Origin: Acidobacterium sp.
GTDB taxonomy: Bacteria; Acidobacteriota; Terriglobia; Terriglobales; Acidobacteriaceae
Direction of reading: 5' to 3'
Assembly: GCA_003166955.1 (NCBI GenBank)
Contig: PMUI01000044.1
Span: 1 to 64,000 of the forward strand
Length of the DNA: 64,000 nucleotides
The notes under the pieces are model-generated. The model saw only the letters and a list, made by a program, of their open reading frames with translations. It searched no databases and had not been told where the DNA came from. Positions 45,407-63,808 of this stretch are shown here, in pieces. Each line of letters begins with the position of its first letter. Position 1 is the first letter of the stretch. The translations under genes and the position numbers were made by a program.

Positions 45407-45455
45407 GTCTCAGGTCTCCTGCTCTCTGTCTCCGGTCTTCTCACTCTTCTCTTAG
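45407..45455. repeat. Tandem degenerate heptamers at the 3' end of the ybbP-like gene
   Basis: Seven 7-nt units in register, such as GTCTCAG, GTCTCCT, GCTCTCT, GTCTCCG and GTCTTCT. They cover the stop codon region (stop at 45441-45443) of the permease gene. Unlike most other arrays in the window this one is at a 3' end. Confidence 0.65.
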
Positions 45456-51406: not shown

Positions 51407-52045
51407 TCACAGCTGCGACGATGTCCGCTCCCGAATCAGCGACAGAAATTCCGCCCGCGTGTTGTGCTTCTGAAAAACGCCCAGCATCGCCGACGTCACC
51501 GTCGACGAGTTCTGCTTCTCCACCCCGCGCATCATCATGCACAGGTGCCGCGCCTCGATCACCACGCCCACGCCCTGCGGATGAATCGCCTCCTGAATTG
51601 CCTCCGCAATCTGCCGCGTCAGCCGCTCCTGCACCTGCAGCCGCCGTGCAAACACCTCCACCAGCCGCGGCGCTTTGCTCAGCCCGATCACCTTGCCGTC
51701 CGGAATGTATGCGACGTGCACCTTTCCGAAAAAGGGCAGCATGTGATGCTCGCACAGCGAGTACATTTCGATGTCCTTCACGATCACCATCTCGTCGTAC
51801 GCCACATCGAACAGCGCCCCGTGCAGAACATCCTTCGGATCCTCCCGGTACCCCTTCGTCAGAAACTCCAGCGCCTTCTCAACGCGCTCCGGCGTCTTCT
51901 CCAGACCGTCTCTGGTGGGATCGGCATCGTACCGCCGAATAATTTCGCGATAGATATCCTGCGTTGTTACATTTTCAAGCCCTGTCGCGCCGATAATCTC
52001 CACGTCCAACTTCTCCCGATCCTCATGCAACGTCGCTCTTGCCAT
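51407..52045 (-). CDS. folE: GTP cyclohydrolase I
   Basis: Converts GTP to dihydroneopterin triphosphate, first step of folate, biopterin and related pathways. At 212 residues it is the usual length. The zinc/catalytic region is [20 protein letters not shown], with HLCMMMRG giving the second Cys; [10 protein letters not shown] and [11 protein letters not shown] are family signatures. The ATG at 52045 is chosen because the family start lies just downstream; upstream is a heptamer array. It is the third gene of a three-gene pterin run with two 6-pyruvoyl-tetrahydropterin synthase-like genes directly upstream. Confidence 0.94.
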
Positions 52046-52087
52046 CCTGACCGCCCTCTGTTCCCTAATCCCTATTCCCTGTTTTAA
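52046..52087. repeat. Tandem degenerate heptamers in the folE leader
   Basis: Six 7-nt units in register on the plus strand: CCTGACC, GCCCTCT, GTTCCCT, AATCCCT, ATTCCCT and GTTTTAA. The array ends directly at the folE start codon and reaches into the stop region of the upstream pterin synthase. On the folE strand it is purine-rich, giving AGGG-type ribosome-site-like words. Confidence 0.7.
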
Positions 52088-52506
52088 GGAATCGGTTCTT
52101 CGTAATACTCGAAAAAGTTGTTCGATGTCTCTTCCACCCGCACCCCCAGCGTCATCTTCCGCGGCAGCGTGCTCTCCAGCCGCTTTCTGATCTCGATCAC
52201 CAGGTTCTCCGTCGTGGGCACAACCTCGCGAAAACACTCCAGCGTATTCAGGTTCGCGTGATCGAACGGCTCCAGCACTTCCCTGCTCACGCAACCATCC
52301 AGTTGCGCAAGATCCATCACCATCCCCGTGGCATTGTCAATTTCTCCGCCCACAATCACTTCCACAGTGTAGTTATGCCCGTGTCCATGCGGATTCGCGC
52401 ACTTCCCATAAACATTCTGATTCTCCGCATCGCTCAGTGACTCAGAAAAAAGCCGATGCGAAGCGCTCAACCGATACCTCCGCCCCAAATGCGCGCGCAT
52501 TTTCAA
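52084..52506 (-). CDS. 6-pyruvoyl/6-carboxy-tetrahydropterin synthase, copy 1
   Basis: A 140-residue member of the PTPS/QueD family, which converts dihydroneopterin triphosphate. Zinc ligands are the His in LSASH and the two in HGHGHNY; the catalytic Cys is in [11 protein letters not shown], with C-x5-HGH spacing as in eukaryotic [18 protein letters not shown] and a C-terminal VRVEETS (acidic substrate anchor) are present. Its ATG overlaps the stop of copy 2 by 4 bp. Together with copy 2 and folE it suggests a biopterin-type or queuosine-type route; the actual product is undetermined. Confidence 0.88.
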
Positions 52507-52916
52507 AAGTCCCCGTAGAAATCCGCGAATAAGTCGGGCATCTCGTACACCCGCACCCGATGCAGCCGCGCCTTCCCAGGAATCTTACCGTCCAGCCTCC
52601 GCCAGATCGCTACCGCAATGTTCTCCGTAGTCGGGATCGCCGTCTTAAACTCCGGCACTTCCAGATTCAGATGCCGATGGTCGTACGCCGACACCACTTC
52701 CTGCTCCATCACGTCTTTCAGCTGCTTTAGATCGACGACAAACCCGGTCACCCGATCGACGTCGCCCGCAATCGTCACCTCCAGCGTGTAATTGTGACCG
52801 TGGCCGTTACGATTGGCGCATTTCCCAAAGACACGCGCGTTCTCCTCCGCGCTCCAGGCCTCGTTCCAGTAGTAATGCGACGCCGAAAACTCCGCCTTTC
52901 TGGTCAACAAGATCAT
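52503..52916 (-). CDS. 6-pyruvoyl/6-carboxy-tetrahydropterin synthase, copy 2
   Basis: A 137-residue PTPS/QueD-family enzyme, paralogue of the next gene (roughly one third to one half identical by eye). Zinc ligands: FSASH and HGHNY; catalytic Cys in GKCANRNGHGH. The substrate-anchoring acid of copy 1 (EETS) is here YEMPDLFADF, so the two may differ in substrate or product. It is the first gene of the pterin run, and its ATG is preceded by a 70-bp heptamer array that supplies CCAGGAG as a ribosome site. Confidence 0.86.
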   Translation of the reverse strand: MILLTRKAEFSASHYYWNEAWSAEENARVFGKCANRNGHGHNYTLEVTIAGDVDRVTGFVVDLKQLKDVMEQEVVSAYDHRHLNLEVPEFKTAIPTTENIAVAIWRRLDGKIPGKARLHRVRVYEMPDLFADFYGDF

Positions 52917-52920
52917 CCGC

Positions 52921-52990
52921 GTTTCCTGGCTCCTGGCTCCCGTCTTCTGTTCCCTATTGCCCGTTCTCTATTCCCTGTTCCCTGCCCTTC
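52921..52990. repeat. Ten tandem degenerate heptamers before pterin synthase copy 2
   Basis: Ten 7-nt units in perfect register on the plus strand, for example GTTTCCT, GGCTCCT, GGCTCCC, GTCTTCT, GTTCCCT, ATTGCCC, GTTCTCT and ATTCCCT. The array starts 4 nt from the ATG of copy 2 (at 52916) and runs into the last codons of the glycosyltransferase (stop at 52954), whose C-terminal GREQGIENGQ is thus encoded by repeat units. It is the longest and clearest of six such arrays in this window. Confidence 0.85.
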
Positions 52991-54075
52991 CAGACTACCT
53001 GCTTCAGCACCGTCACGCGAAACCAGCTCCGCCACAGCAGCCACGCGTACAGCGGAATGCCCACCGGCGCCAGCACGCAATCCCTGAACGGGAATCCCGA
53101 CTTCGCCACGCGCCCATACAGCCCCCACAGCGCCCGCACCCACACCAGCACCAGCGCCGCAGTCGCCATCGGCGTGCCCAGCACACCGGTTCCTGCGCCG
53201 CGACCCACCTCCCGCAGCCACCACAAAAACCAGATCAGCGCCGGGACGCCCACCAGCACCCCCAGCTGCAGCAGCCGGATCCCGGCCAGCATCGGCGCAT
53301 TCACGAACAGCAGTGCCAGGTTTTTCGTCCAGCCCTCCACCATCGCGCCAAAGCTGCGATACATCCGCGCCGCAACGGCCTCCGGCGCATTCCGGAATCT
53401 CAACCCCAGCCTAAGCCGTTTCACCAGGCTTGCCAGCTCCACGTCCTCCAGCACCGAACCCTTTACCGCCGCATGCCCGCCGATCATGTCGTACGCATCG
53501 CGCCGCACCAGCAGAAACTGTCCATTCGCCGCAGCCACCCGCGTCGCCGGATCGTTCACCTTGGCCGGCGCATATGTCGCCGCCAAATCGCTGAACACCA
53601 GCGGCATCAGCGCCCGCTGCGCCAGCCCCCGCACAATCTGCCGCGGCGAGTACGACAGCATCCCCACCTCATGCCGCTCCGCCTCAATGATCGCCAGCCG
53701 CAATGTATTTGGTGTACCGGTCACACCCATTGCCGGACTCGCCGGTTCATGCACGGTGTCCGCATCCGTGAACAGCAGCCACTTTCCACGAGCCCTTTGC
53801 ACGCCCGCCCAGCACGCATTCGCCTTCCCCGTCCACCCCTTTTCGAGCTTCGGAGCATCGATCACCGCCACGCCCGAGCGTTCAGACGAGAACCCAGCCG
53901 CAATCTCCCGCGTTCGATCCGTCGACGCGTCGTTGACCACCAAAATCTCCCAATCCTCAGAGAGCCGCCACCCATCCCCCTCCTGCGCCACCAGCGAGCG
54001 CACACAATCCCCCAAACAATCCTCCTCATTGCGCGCGGGAATAATGACGGAAAGAATCAGCGGCGGGGCATCCAC
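52954..54075 (-). CDS. Glycosyltransferase family 2, membrane-bound
   Basis: A 373-residue GT2 enzyme resembling hopanoid- or carotenoid-type glycosyltransferases. It opens with a GT-A nucleotide-binding part (LSVIIPARNEEDCLGDC, VVNDASTDRT), then FTDADT as the metal-binding DxD, and ANGQFLLVRRDAY with VLEDVELA as the acceptor region. Three membrane helices are at the C-terminus. Between FTDADTVHEP and EAERH there is a ~13-residue insert (SPAMGVTGTPNTL) of lower GC that I do not expect in this family. It is divergent from the TlpA-like gene by 25 bp. Substrate unknown. Confidence 0.85.
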   Translation of the reverse strand: MDAPPLILSVIIPARNEEDCLGDCVRSLVAQEGDGWRLSEDWEILVVNDASTDRTREIAAGFSSERSGVAVIDAPKLEKGWTGKANACWAGVQRARGKWLLFTDADTVHEPASPAMGVTGTPNTLRLAIIEAERHEVGMLSYSPRQIVRGLAQRALMPLVFSDLAATYAPAKVNDPATRVAAANGQFLLVRRDAYDMIGGHAAVKGSVLEDVELASLVKRLRLGLRFRNAPEAVAARMYRSFGAMVEGWTKNLALLFVNAPMLAGIRLLQLGVLVGVPALIWFLWWLREVGRGAGTGVLGTPMATAALVLVWVRALWGLYGRVAKSGFPFRDCVLAPVGIPLYAWLLWRSWFRVTVLKQVVWKGREQGIENGQ

Positions 54076-54100: not shown

Positions 54101-54610
54101 GTGCTCCGCCGCCTCACGTATTCGCTTGCTGTGCTCTGTGCTCTGAGCTCTGTGCTCTGTCTCACAGGCTGCGACCGCACCACCCACCCCGCCCAGGTCG
54201 GCGAGCACGCCCCCGCCATCGTCATCCACGACGGCCCGCAGATCGTCAGCCTCCGCGCCTATCAGCGCCAGGGCAAAGTCGTCGTCCTCAATTTCTGGGC
54301 CAGCTGGTGCCCGCCCTGCCTCGAAGAGTTCCCTTCCCTCATCGACCTGCAGCGCCGCATGCCCGGAGTCGTTGTCCTCGCGGTCAGCTTCGACACCGAC
54401 GCTAACGCCTATCAGCAGTACGTCGCCGACAACCACATCGCCGGCATCACCACCATCCTCGACCTCTCCCAGCAATCGAACCACGCCTTCGACACTACGC
54501 GCCCGCCGGAGACCTACATCATCGACACCCACGGCGTCATCCGCCGCAAATTCATCGGCGCCCAGGACTGGACCACCCCCGAAATCATCAACTACCTCCG
54601 TAACCTTTGA
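54101..54610 (+). CDS. TlpA/ResA-like thioredoxin lipoprotein
   Basis: A 169-residue periplasmic thioredoxin-fold lipoprotein, probably a thiol-disulfide reductase for cytochrome c maturation or similar. The active site is WASWCPPCLEEF. The lipobox is LTGC and the signal h-region AVLCALSSVLC is encoded by the heptamer array at 54128-54162. VSFDTDANAYQQYVADN and PPETYIIDTHGVI complete the AhpC/TSA-type fold. The start is taken as GTG at 54101; no ATG or good ribosome site is near. DUF1345-like gene follows 3 nt after its stop. Confidence 0.85.
   Translation: MLRRLTYSLAVLCALSSVLCLTGCDRTTHPAQVGEHAPAIVIHDGPQIVSLRAYQRQGKVVVLNFWASWCPPCLEEFPSLIDLQRRMPGVVVLAVSFDTDANAYQQYVADNHIAGITTILDLSQQSNHAFDTTRPPETYIIDTHGVIRRKFIGAQDWTTPEIINYLRNL
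54128..54162. repeat. Tandem heptamers inside a signal-peptide coding region
   Basis: Five 7-nt units: GCTGTGC, TCTGTGC, TCTGAGC, TCTGTGC and TCTGTCT. They encode most of the hydrophobic part of the TlpA-like lipoprotein signal. As 7 is not a multiple of 3, gain or loss of one unit would shift the frame; three units restore it. Confidence 0.8.
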
Positions 54611-63773: not shown

Positions 63774-63808
63774 GCCCCGCACCCTGGACCCTGCACCCTG
63801 TACGCTGG
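63774..63808. repeat. Tandem heptamers in the HAD gene leader
   Basis: Five 7-nt units in register: GCCCCGC, ACCCTGG, ACCCTGC, ACCCTGT and ACGCTGG, followed by TCCAG and the ATG at 63814. The ACCCTGT unit matches the CCCTGTA words in the proS leader array, and both end 5 nt before the start codon. Confidence 0.75.

Follow-up and report, generated by a model that had tools for sequence, protein, structure and literature searches.

A heptamer array before an Acidobacterium PTPS-family gene belongs to a genome-wide class of period-7 arrays that lie mostly behind stop codons

The start codon of a PTPS-family gene of Acidobacterium sp. is preceded by ten tandem 7-nt units that also run through the end of the gene upstream. 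The question raised by this locus is to which of the two genes, if to either, the array belongs: is it a leader that acts on translation of the gene that follows, or a repeat of the preceding gene end that happens to reach the next ribosome site?

The array at 52921-52990 and its companions in the window

The array is real. Within the window, by which we mean the whole 64,000-nt stretch of DNA analyzed (from genome G000), the 70 bp before the minus strand PTPS-family gene (52503-52916; PF01242; the second pterin synthase copy of an earlier sequence-only reading) consist of ten degenerate 7-nt units in one register, at positions 52921-52990. The minus strand is both the coding and the purine-rich strand, and on it GGGAAYA units are followed by GGAGCCA units that end 4 nt before the ATG. 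When shifted by 7 nt the array matches itself at 39 of 63 positions, compared with 15-24 matches at lags 3-6 and 8-13 and 32 at lag 14. In 30 dinucleotide shuffles the lag-7 maxima over the 64-kb window were 30-35. Only one further window position (1323) reached 39 at lag 7, and none did so at the other lags tested (5, 6, and 8-13). The ten units, the single register and the 4-nt distance to the ATG given by the sequence-only reading were thereby borne out. Note that the array is degenerate: TRF returned only fragments of it, and it passes our permissive lag-7 scan but fails the stricter scan behind the genome-wide counts given below.

By eye, the final units of the array supply the AGGA located seven nt from the PTPS ATG. 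The array also covers the stop codon (52954) of the upstream family 2 glycosyltransferase (52954-54075, minus strand; PF00535) and encodes the C-terminal residues of that protein together with its TAG stop. On the same strand lie a first copy of the PTPS-family gene (52084-52506; PF01242) and the gene encoding GTP cyclohydrolase I (51407-52045; PF01227), and between the stop of the former and the start of the latter sits a second GGGAAYA-type array having three clear units (52046-52083, minus strand), of which 52062-52083 passes the permissive scan.

Five companion arrays had been named in the window, four of which were recovered by the permissive scan (1347-1376, 52062-52083, 54129-54160, and 63775-63807). 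The fifth, at 45407, has only 19 of 43 lag-7 matches and was not recovered. The stricter scan keeps two window arrays only, those at 1347 and 54129. The former (AGAGTTT, 4.3 units, plus strand) lies 31 nt from the called start of a minus strand gene, to which its purine strand is antisense. The latter (AGAGCAC, minus strand) is coding, as it falls within a redoxin-family ORF on the plus strand and, by eye, within the lipoprotein-like signal peptide of that ORF. Our ORF caller missed the redoxin-family ORF and thus this array was counted as intergenic in the position test described below. AGAGCAC-like arrays were also seen in the genus members G004, G007, and G008, and this coding array seems to have been kept while the intergenic arrays turn over. 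The array at 63775-63807 (CAGGGT(A/G/C) type, minus strand, permissive scan only) lies between divergent genes, and G006 carries an AGCCGGG array at the equivalent junction.

Abundance, units and placement of period-7 arrays in the genus

A three-unit GGGAAYA pattern, GGGAANAGGGAANAGGGAA, has 44 matches in the 5.41-Mb genome (overlaps counted, about 30 places), whereas its reversed control has none. The claim that the arrays differ in sequence between loci therefore failed, because the array at 52046 and most of that at 52921 are both made of this unit. Counts for all units were obtained with the stricter lag-identity scan in an 858-kb sample (40 stretches plus the window), for which contigs were picked because they held matches, so that densities are inflated to a degree that is not known. 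The scan gave 67 period-7 arrays, of which 55 were intergenic, yet 86% of the sample was called coding. Each of five shuffles of the sequence gave 0-1 period-7 arrays. Periods 4, 5, 8-11, and 13 gave 0-4 arrays each, period 6 gave 12 (all coding), period 12 gave 8, period 15 gave 15 (8 intergenic), period 16 gave 1, and period 14, the harmonic of 7, gave 42. Period 7 is strongly preferred, and the recurring architecture of that period reported from the window is upheld on the genome scale. The 52921 array is a member of this genome-wide class, to which it was assigned by its GGGAAYA units and its lag-7 count because it is too degenerate for the stricter scan. Scaled from the non-random sample, a rough estimate for the whole genome is about 400 arrays. 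A second dispersed tandem family, of period 15, was noted near AGCGGTCAGCTAAGA at five loci of the same genome and can be divided into a 7-mer and an 8-mer.

Seven array-bearing members of the genus together yielded 125 arrays with 49 distinct consensus units, compared with the 116.6 expected from random intergenic heptamers. The units vary but come from a restricted repertoire, the commonest being GGGTACA, GGGAACA, GGGAGCT, GGGAATA, GGGAGCC, and GCGTTCA. Four GGG tracts are present in only 42 of the 125 arrays. The most frequent unit number is four (48 of 125), although the score threshold trims shorter arrays. Long GGGAGCY arrays occur in G008, one of about 11 units at a junction and one of about 26 units with which a sampled stretch begins. 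The hexamer AAAAGC beside arrays was rejected as an associated signal, being only mildly in excess (8 of 125 on the 3' side and 6 of 125 on the 5' side vs 7 of 664 background stretches); in several cases it is, by eye, the A-tract of a likely terminator.

The placement of these 125 arrays relative to genes was compared with uniform placement within the same gaps (2000 simulations). Coding arrays (25) and six intergenic arrays having no called gene on one side were removed, leaving 94 tested arrays, a set that does not include the 52921 array. Starts and stops were taken from our own simple codon-score ORF caller, which failed to call one or more ORFs of the window. The purine-rich strand lies in the sense orientation no more than 10 nt after a stop codon in 35 of the 94 arrays, whereas 9.3 were expected and none of the 2000 simulations reached 35. 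A sense stop is the 5' neighbor of 55 arrays, and these 35 are the ones within 10 nt of it. In contrast, a sense start lies within 10 nt downstream of only 3 of the 94 arrays, with 6.8 expected (probability of a count this low, 0.04). On the antisense side, a start lies within 10 nt of 9 arrays (3.4 expected) and a stop within 10 nt of 6 (5.7 expected). Irrespective of strand, 12 arrays lie within 10 nt of a start (10.2 expected) and 41 within 10 nt of a stop (15.0 expected). Relative to the purine strand, 76 arrays have their nearer ORF at the 5' side and 16 at the 3' side, with two ties. When each cluster of neighbors (82 clusters) was represented by a single array, 34 of 48 were close to a sense stop (8.9 expected) and the 5' to 3' split was 65 to 15. 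Hence the suggestion that arrays lie against start codons did not survive as a genome-wide rule. The comparison of distances to start codons that the same reading had proposed gave no enrichment for sense starts or for starts overall and left only the excess on the antisense side.

Purine-skewed 30-mers taken from the gaps of the same genomes, but outside arrays, served as controls. Their 5' to 3' split is 253 to 224 and 27 lie near sense stops (19.6 expected). They are enriched before sense starts (41 vs 22.4 expected), as ribosome sites would produce. The polarity of the arrays is absent from purine-skewed DNA that is not in arrays. The coding arrays are in the sense orientation in 20 of 25 cases, and 12 of the 25, all sense, lie within the last tenth of the ORF. 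As raw counts, 15 of 94 arrays lie between divergent genes, as do 181 of the 815 gaps that span 20 nt or more. Stops next to arrays show a mild excess of TAG (17 of 36 vs 333 of 1068, P = 0.046). No stop codon of 28 was fully in register with the units in a test that was set aside because it is biased by how the segments are cut.

The arrays are therefore intergenic, with the 5' end of the purine-rich strand against an ORF edge, mostly just after sense stops. This holds with or without the ability to form G-quadruplexes. Among intergenic arrays having a four-GGG motif, the nearer ORF is 5' in 27 of 30; a sense stop flanks that side in 16 arrays, at a distance of 10 nt or less in 12. Without the motif, the nearer ORF is 5' in 49 of 64, and 23 of 39 lie within 10 nt of the sense stop. 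The polarity is independent of G-quadruplex capacity, and the position of the arrays seems to follow one rule whatever the letters of the unit.

Turnover among sister species and arrays beyond the genus

Within the genus the sampled load spans none to about 200 arrays per Mb. The densities per Mb were 198 in G002 and 214 in G006 (contigs wholly or partly chosen by matches), 173 in G005, 78 in G000, 72 in G008, 37 in G010, 22 in G011, and 11 in G004. No arrays were found in the samples of G003 (275 kb), G001 (63 kb), G009 (44 kb), or G007 (35 kb), the zeros of the last two or three being weak owing to small samples, and the whole G003 genome has one match to a GGGAANA pattern. Species also favor different units: the GGGTACA pattern has 42 matches in G006 and 12 in G000, whereas GGGAANA has 4 in G006 and 44 in G000. 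A joined tree of two proteins from nine species (G005 and G023 are omitted as their glycosyltransferase was not recovered) places G000, G011, G002, and G006 together and G009, G007, and G004 separately, with G003 and G008 in neither group.

Eleven relatives in the genus were searched for the glycosyltransferase-PTPS junction, and G001 and G010 lack a close PTPS match. Seven of the nine relatives having the junction carry a period-7 array at threshold there. The units are AGCCGGT in G011, GGGAACA/GGCAGTA in G002, AGCCGGT plus GGAGCYG in G005, GGGATTA plus CAGAGCA in G006, AGCGTGT/AGGGTTT in G009, GGGTATA/GGGTTTA in G008, and GGGGTTA/GGGTATA in G004. By eye, G007 has a shorter run, and the junction of G003 is present with no array. 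As far as CCAGGAAACGCGGATG the G000 and G005 arrays have their 3' half in common, within which a single GGAGCYG unit sets them apart. This is the sole clean unit-sized difference at the locus, and it leaves the CCAGGAAACGCGGATG ribosome-site context unaltered. G005 also has an extra AGCCGGT-type stretch upstream.

At a second junction, located 3' of one gene, the heptamers of different species are unrelated: GCCAGTA-type in G000, AGCCGGT-type in G005, GTGATCA-type in G006, and GGGAGCT-type in G008. No array was found there in G003, G004, or G007; the region after the stop is of different sequence in G010 and G011 and has no array, and the G002 and G009 loci end at this point. In 81 comparisons of orthologous junctions, which derive from few distinct junctions, arrays were present in both genomes in 11, only in G000 in 10, only in the relative in one, and in neither in 59. 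From one sister species to another the units at a given junction turn over, and relatives keep arrays, variable in length and sequence, at the same junctions.

Beyond the genus, 16 of the 396 genomes sampled from the phylum, belonging to 9 of 211 genera, have GGGAAYA arrays of three and a half units. Tandem heptamers are also known from filamentous cyanobacteria, the intergenic short tandemly repeated repetitive (STRR) heptanucleotides of which are of several unit types. The three-and-a-half-unit GGGAAYA pattern has 845 matches in Trichormus sp. NMC-1 and 804 in Moorena bouillonii (overlaps counted), which supports the kinship with STRR that had been proposed. A named scan with GGGAAYA gave at least 116 stretches; among the matches listed 80 were titled, 68 of these being cyanobacterial by title and the remaining 12 scattered over other phyla. 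The 116 listed stretches hold 354 period-7 arrays compared with 1-39 for other periods (293 for the harmonic, 14), and 205 of these 354 have no GGGAAYA-GGGAA stretch.

The position test was repeated on 66 of the 68 titled cyanobacterial loci among the matches listed (two were too short), comprising 469 kb and 158 intergenic arrays. Within 10 nt lay a sense stop in 38 cases (8.2 expected), an antisense start in 16 (4.4 expected), a sense start in 4 (5.3 expected), and an antisense stop in 5 (7.4 expected). The nearer ORF was on the 5' side in 121 and on the 3' side in 37, and arrays without GGGAAYA gave 19 near sense stops (5.5 expected). In these loci the cyanobacterial heptamer arrays share the polarity, also with units other than GGGAAYA. 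The Acidobacterium arrays thus resemble STRR in period, in having several unit types, in intergenic location, in the abundance of GGGAAYA in cyanobacterial genomes, and in polarity, and differ in that the host belongs to the Acidobacteriota rather than to the cyanobacteria.

Known heptamer repeats and the origin of the arrays

Heptamer arrays are a long-standing observation that has no accepted cause; reports from Calothrix, Xanthomonas, and Nostoc are cited in earlier papers (PMC4692102, PMC4679880). Rehm 2015 described G-rich heptamers (GGGNATC and GGGGA(C/T)T) in two Xanthomonas strains and one Nostoc, which have the same positional preference and for which no regulatory role could be identified (PMC4692102). 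Those repeats are like the present arrays in period, in being dispersed and mostly intergenic, in lying near sense stops or, on the antisense strand, a short way upstream of ORFs, and in occupying the same junctions in related species with variation in length and sequence. They are further described as having four G-tracts that can form a G-quadruplex, as being depleted between divergent genes, and as favoring four units. Unlike them, the Acidobacterium arrays are of many unit types per genome, lack the four-GGG motif in two thirds of cases, belong to a different phylum, and range from none to dense within one genus. The TAACTGA arrays of Maribeggiatoa (MacGregor 2015, PMC4679880) are likewise intergenic tandem heptamers of few units, some overlapping the upstream stop. 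However, they have one unit and lie mostly just upstream of starts, whereas the Acidobacterium arrays have many units and lie mostly after stops; TAACTGA is not among the 25 commonest of our 49 distinct units. A 2014 survey gives a heptamer repeat pattern (7n3) as "normally represented" at the median of four acidobacterial genera (PMC4060949), in keeping with the patchy distribution observed in this analysis. Among open-licence PMC papers our searches turned up none about heptamer arrays of the Acidobacteriota, which does not prove that none exists. The kind of repeat is already known from STRR and Rehm 2015; what is new is the host group, the diversity of units, and a polarity that is independent of G-quadruplex capacity.

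The 52921 array probably belongs to a set of heptamer satellites, dispersed over the genome, that grow by slippage, turn over fast, and are tolerated at the 3' ends of genes. Such arrays would arise and lengthen through replication slippage biased to 7 nt, perhaps along the lines of the idea, repeated by Rehm 2015 and credited to Mrazek 2007, that 7 nt reflects polymerase contact (PMC4692102). They would persist where DNA is least constrained, directly behind stops, where they could rewrite the last codons and the stop itself. Before sense starts they might be held back, as purine-rich units would add decoy ribosome sites, although this step is weak: the depletion is small and is absent from the cyanobacterial loci. 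The 52921 array would then be a gene-end or spacer satellite that by chance occupies a short operon junction and thus extends to the ribosome site that follows, and would therefore not be a translation-tuning leader.

Several observations sit poorly with slippage and tolerance. The restricted repertoire and the species-favored units count against slippage from random seeds alone and call for a further contribution, either from copies made between loci or from selection acting on sequence. Weak constraint does not account for the antisense-start excess, and some arrays have flanks in common with larger dispersed repeats. Slippage and tolerance do not explain the restricted units, this excess, or why load differs between species. 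General loss of mismatch repair was rejected as the cause, because all 12 genus members have MutS1, 11 of them with a match over the cut-off and G011 with one split into pieces on two contigs, and array-rich genomes have no consistent excess of mono-, di-, or trinucleotide tracts. An insert in MutS was also rejected as a correlate of load, as G008 and G010 have arrays and no visible insert and G009 has the insert and no array in 44 kb. At L048:12309-12420 of the own genome, MutS has no internal stops and carries an in-frame insert from a stretch containing TGTCATTCCGAGCGGAGCGG. This insert, the only one whose sequence was examined, we take to resemble part of a dispersed repeat. In G002, G005, G006, and G009 a gap of 75-129 nt in the MutS1 match lies near the same model position as the G000 insert. 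In a mutation study of Acidobacterium capsulatum, indels reportedly made up more than 26% of the mutations, a high share (PMC8717266).

The proposal that the array is a leader, in which slippage by a unit alters the spacing of ribosome site and start codon and thereby sets expression, accommodates its end 4 nt before the ATG and the AGGA it holds. We nevertheless consider it very unlikely, given that arrays as a class are scarce before sense starts and gather at stops, that the G000/G005 unit difference spares the ribosome-site context, and that G003 has the same junction with no array. Arrays acting as four-stranded DNA or RNA roadblocks behind genes, as elements of the Rehm 2015 class, would explain why many units carry GGG and why the preferred positions are those reported for Xanthomonas and Nostoc (PMC4692102). 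This too is unlikely: only about a third of the arrays have four GGG tracts, those without the motif keep the polarity, and the cyanobacterial arrays without GGGAAYA in the 66 loci examined do likewise.

A somewhat better case, though still an improbable one, can be made for dispersed mobile units, in which blocks of heptamers would be copied from locus to locus, by themselves or within larger repeats, and would then drift. The restricted repertoire is in its favor, as is a non-heptamer flank that 22 of the 67 G000 arrays share with another array (neighbors at one locus included), but the other 45 have no shared flank within the sampled stretches. A REP-like palindrome ending ATGGGGCACCC, which often follows the array, was noted at six loci of the own genome and has 29 matches in the 858 kb. 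As a raw count, eight of the 29 are no more than 200 nt away from an array (about 10% expected), mostly 3' of it on the same strand, and the motif is on the 3' side and purine strand of the array in 10 of the 11 array-motif pairs listed. It has no match in the samples of the array-poor G003 (275 kb) and G004 (178 kb), and it is absent from some array-bearing samples (G010, G011, and G025), which counts against the proposal. Y1 transposases occur in 12 of 12 genus members regardless of array load, and a REP-associated transposase was rejected as the cause. At two loci of the own genome GGGAACA arrays lie beside or inside a longer dispersed repeat containing GGTCAACCTTTTGACTCGTTGATTGAT.

Beyond the preferred reading of slippage-grown satellites stands a wider and rather doubtful one, that a period-locked, largely sequence-indifferent process writes 7-nt arrays onto ORF edges with fixed polarity, perhaps needing a species-patchy trans-acting factor, independently in Acidobacteriota, Cyanobacteria, and Xanthomonas. 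If true, this process would be a general rule of heptamer satellite growth at gene ends, and neither a G-quadruplex system nor a leader motif. That the polarity is found without G-quadruplex capacity and also in cyanobacterial loci argues against a quadruplex account of array placement. A single genus that goes from no array seen in 275 kb to dense arrays, with common gene order at the compared junctions and replacement of units at fixed places, makes the cause of period 7 and of the polarity testable by comparison.
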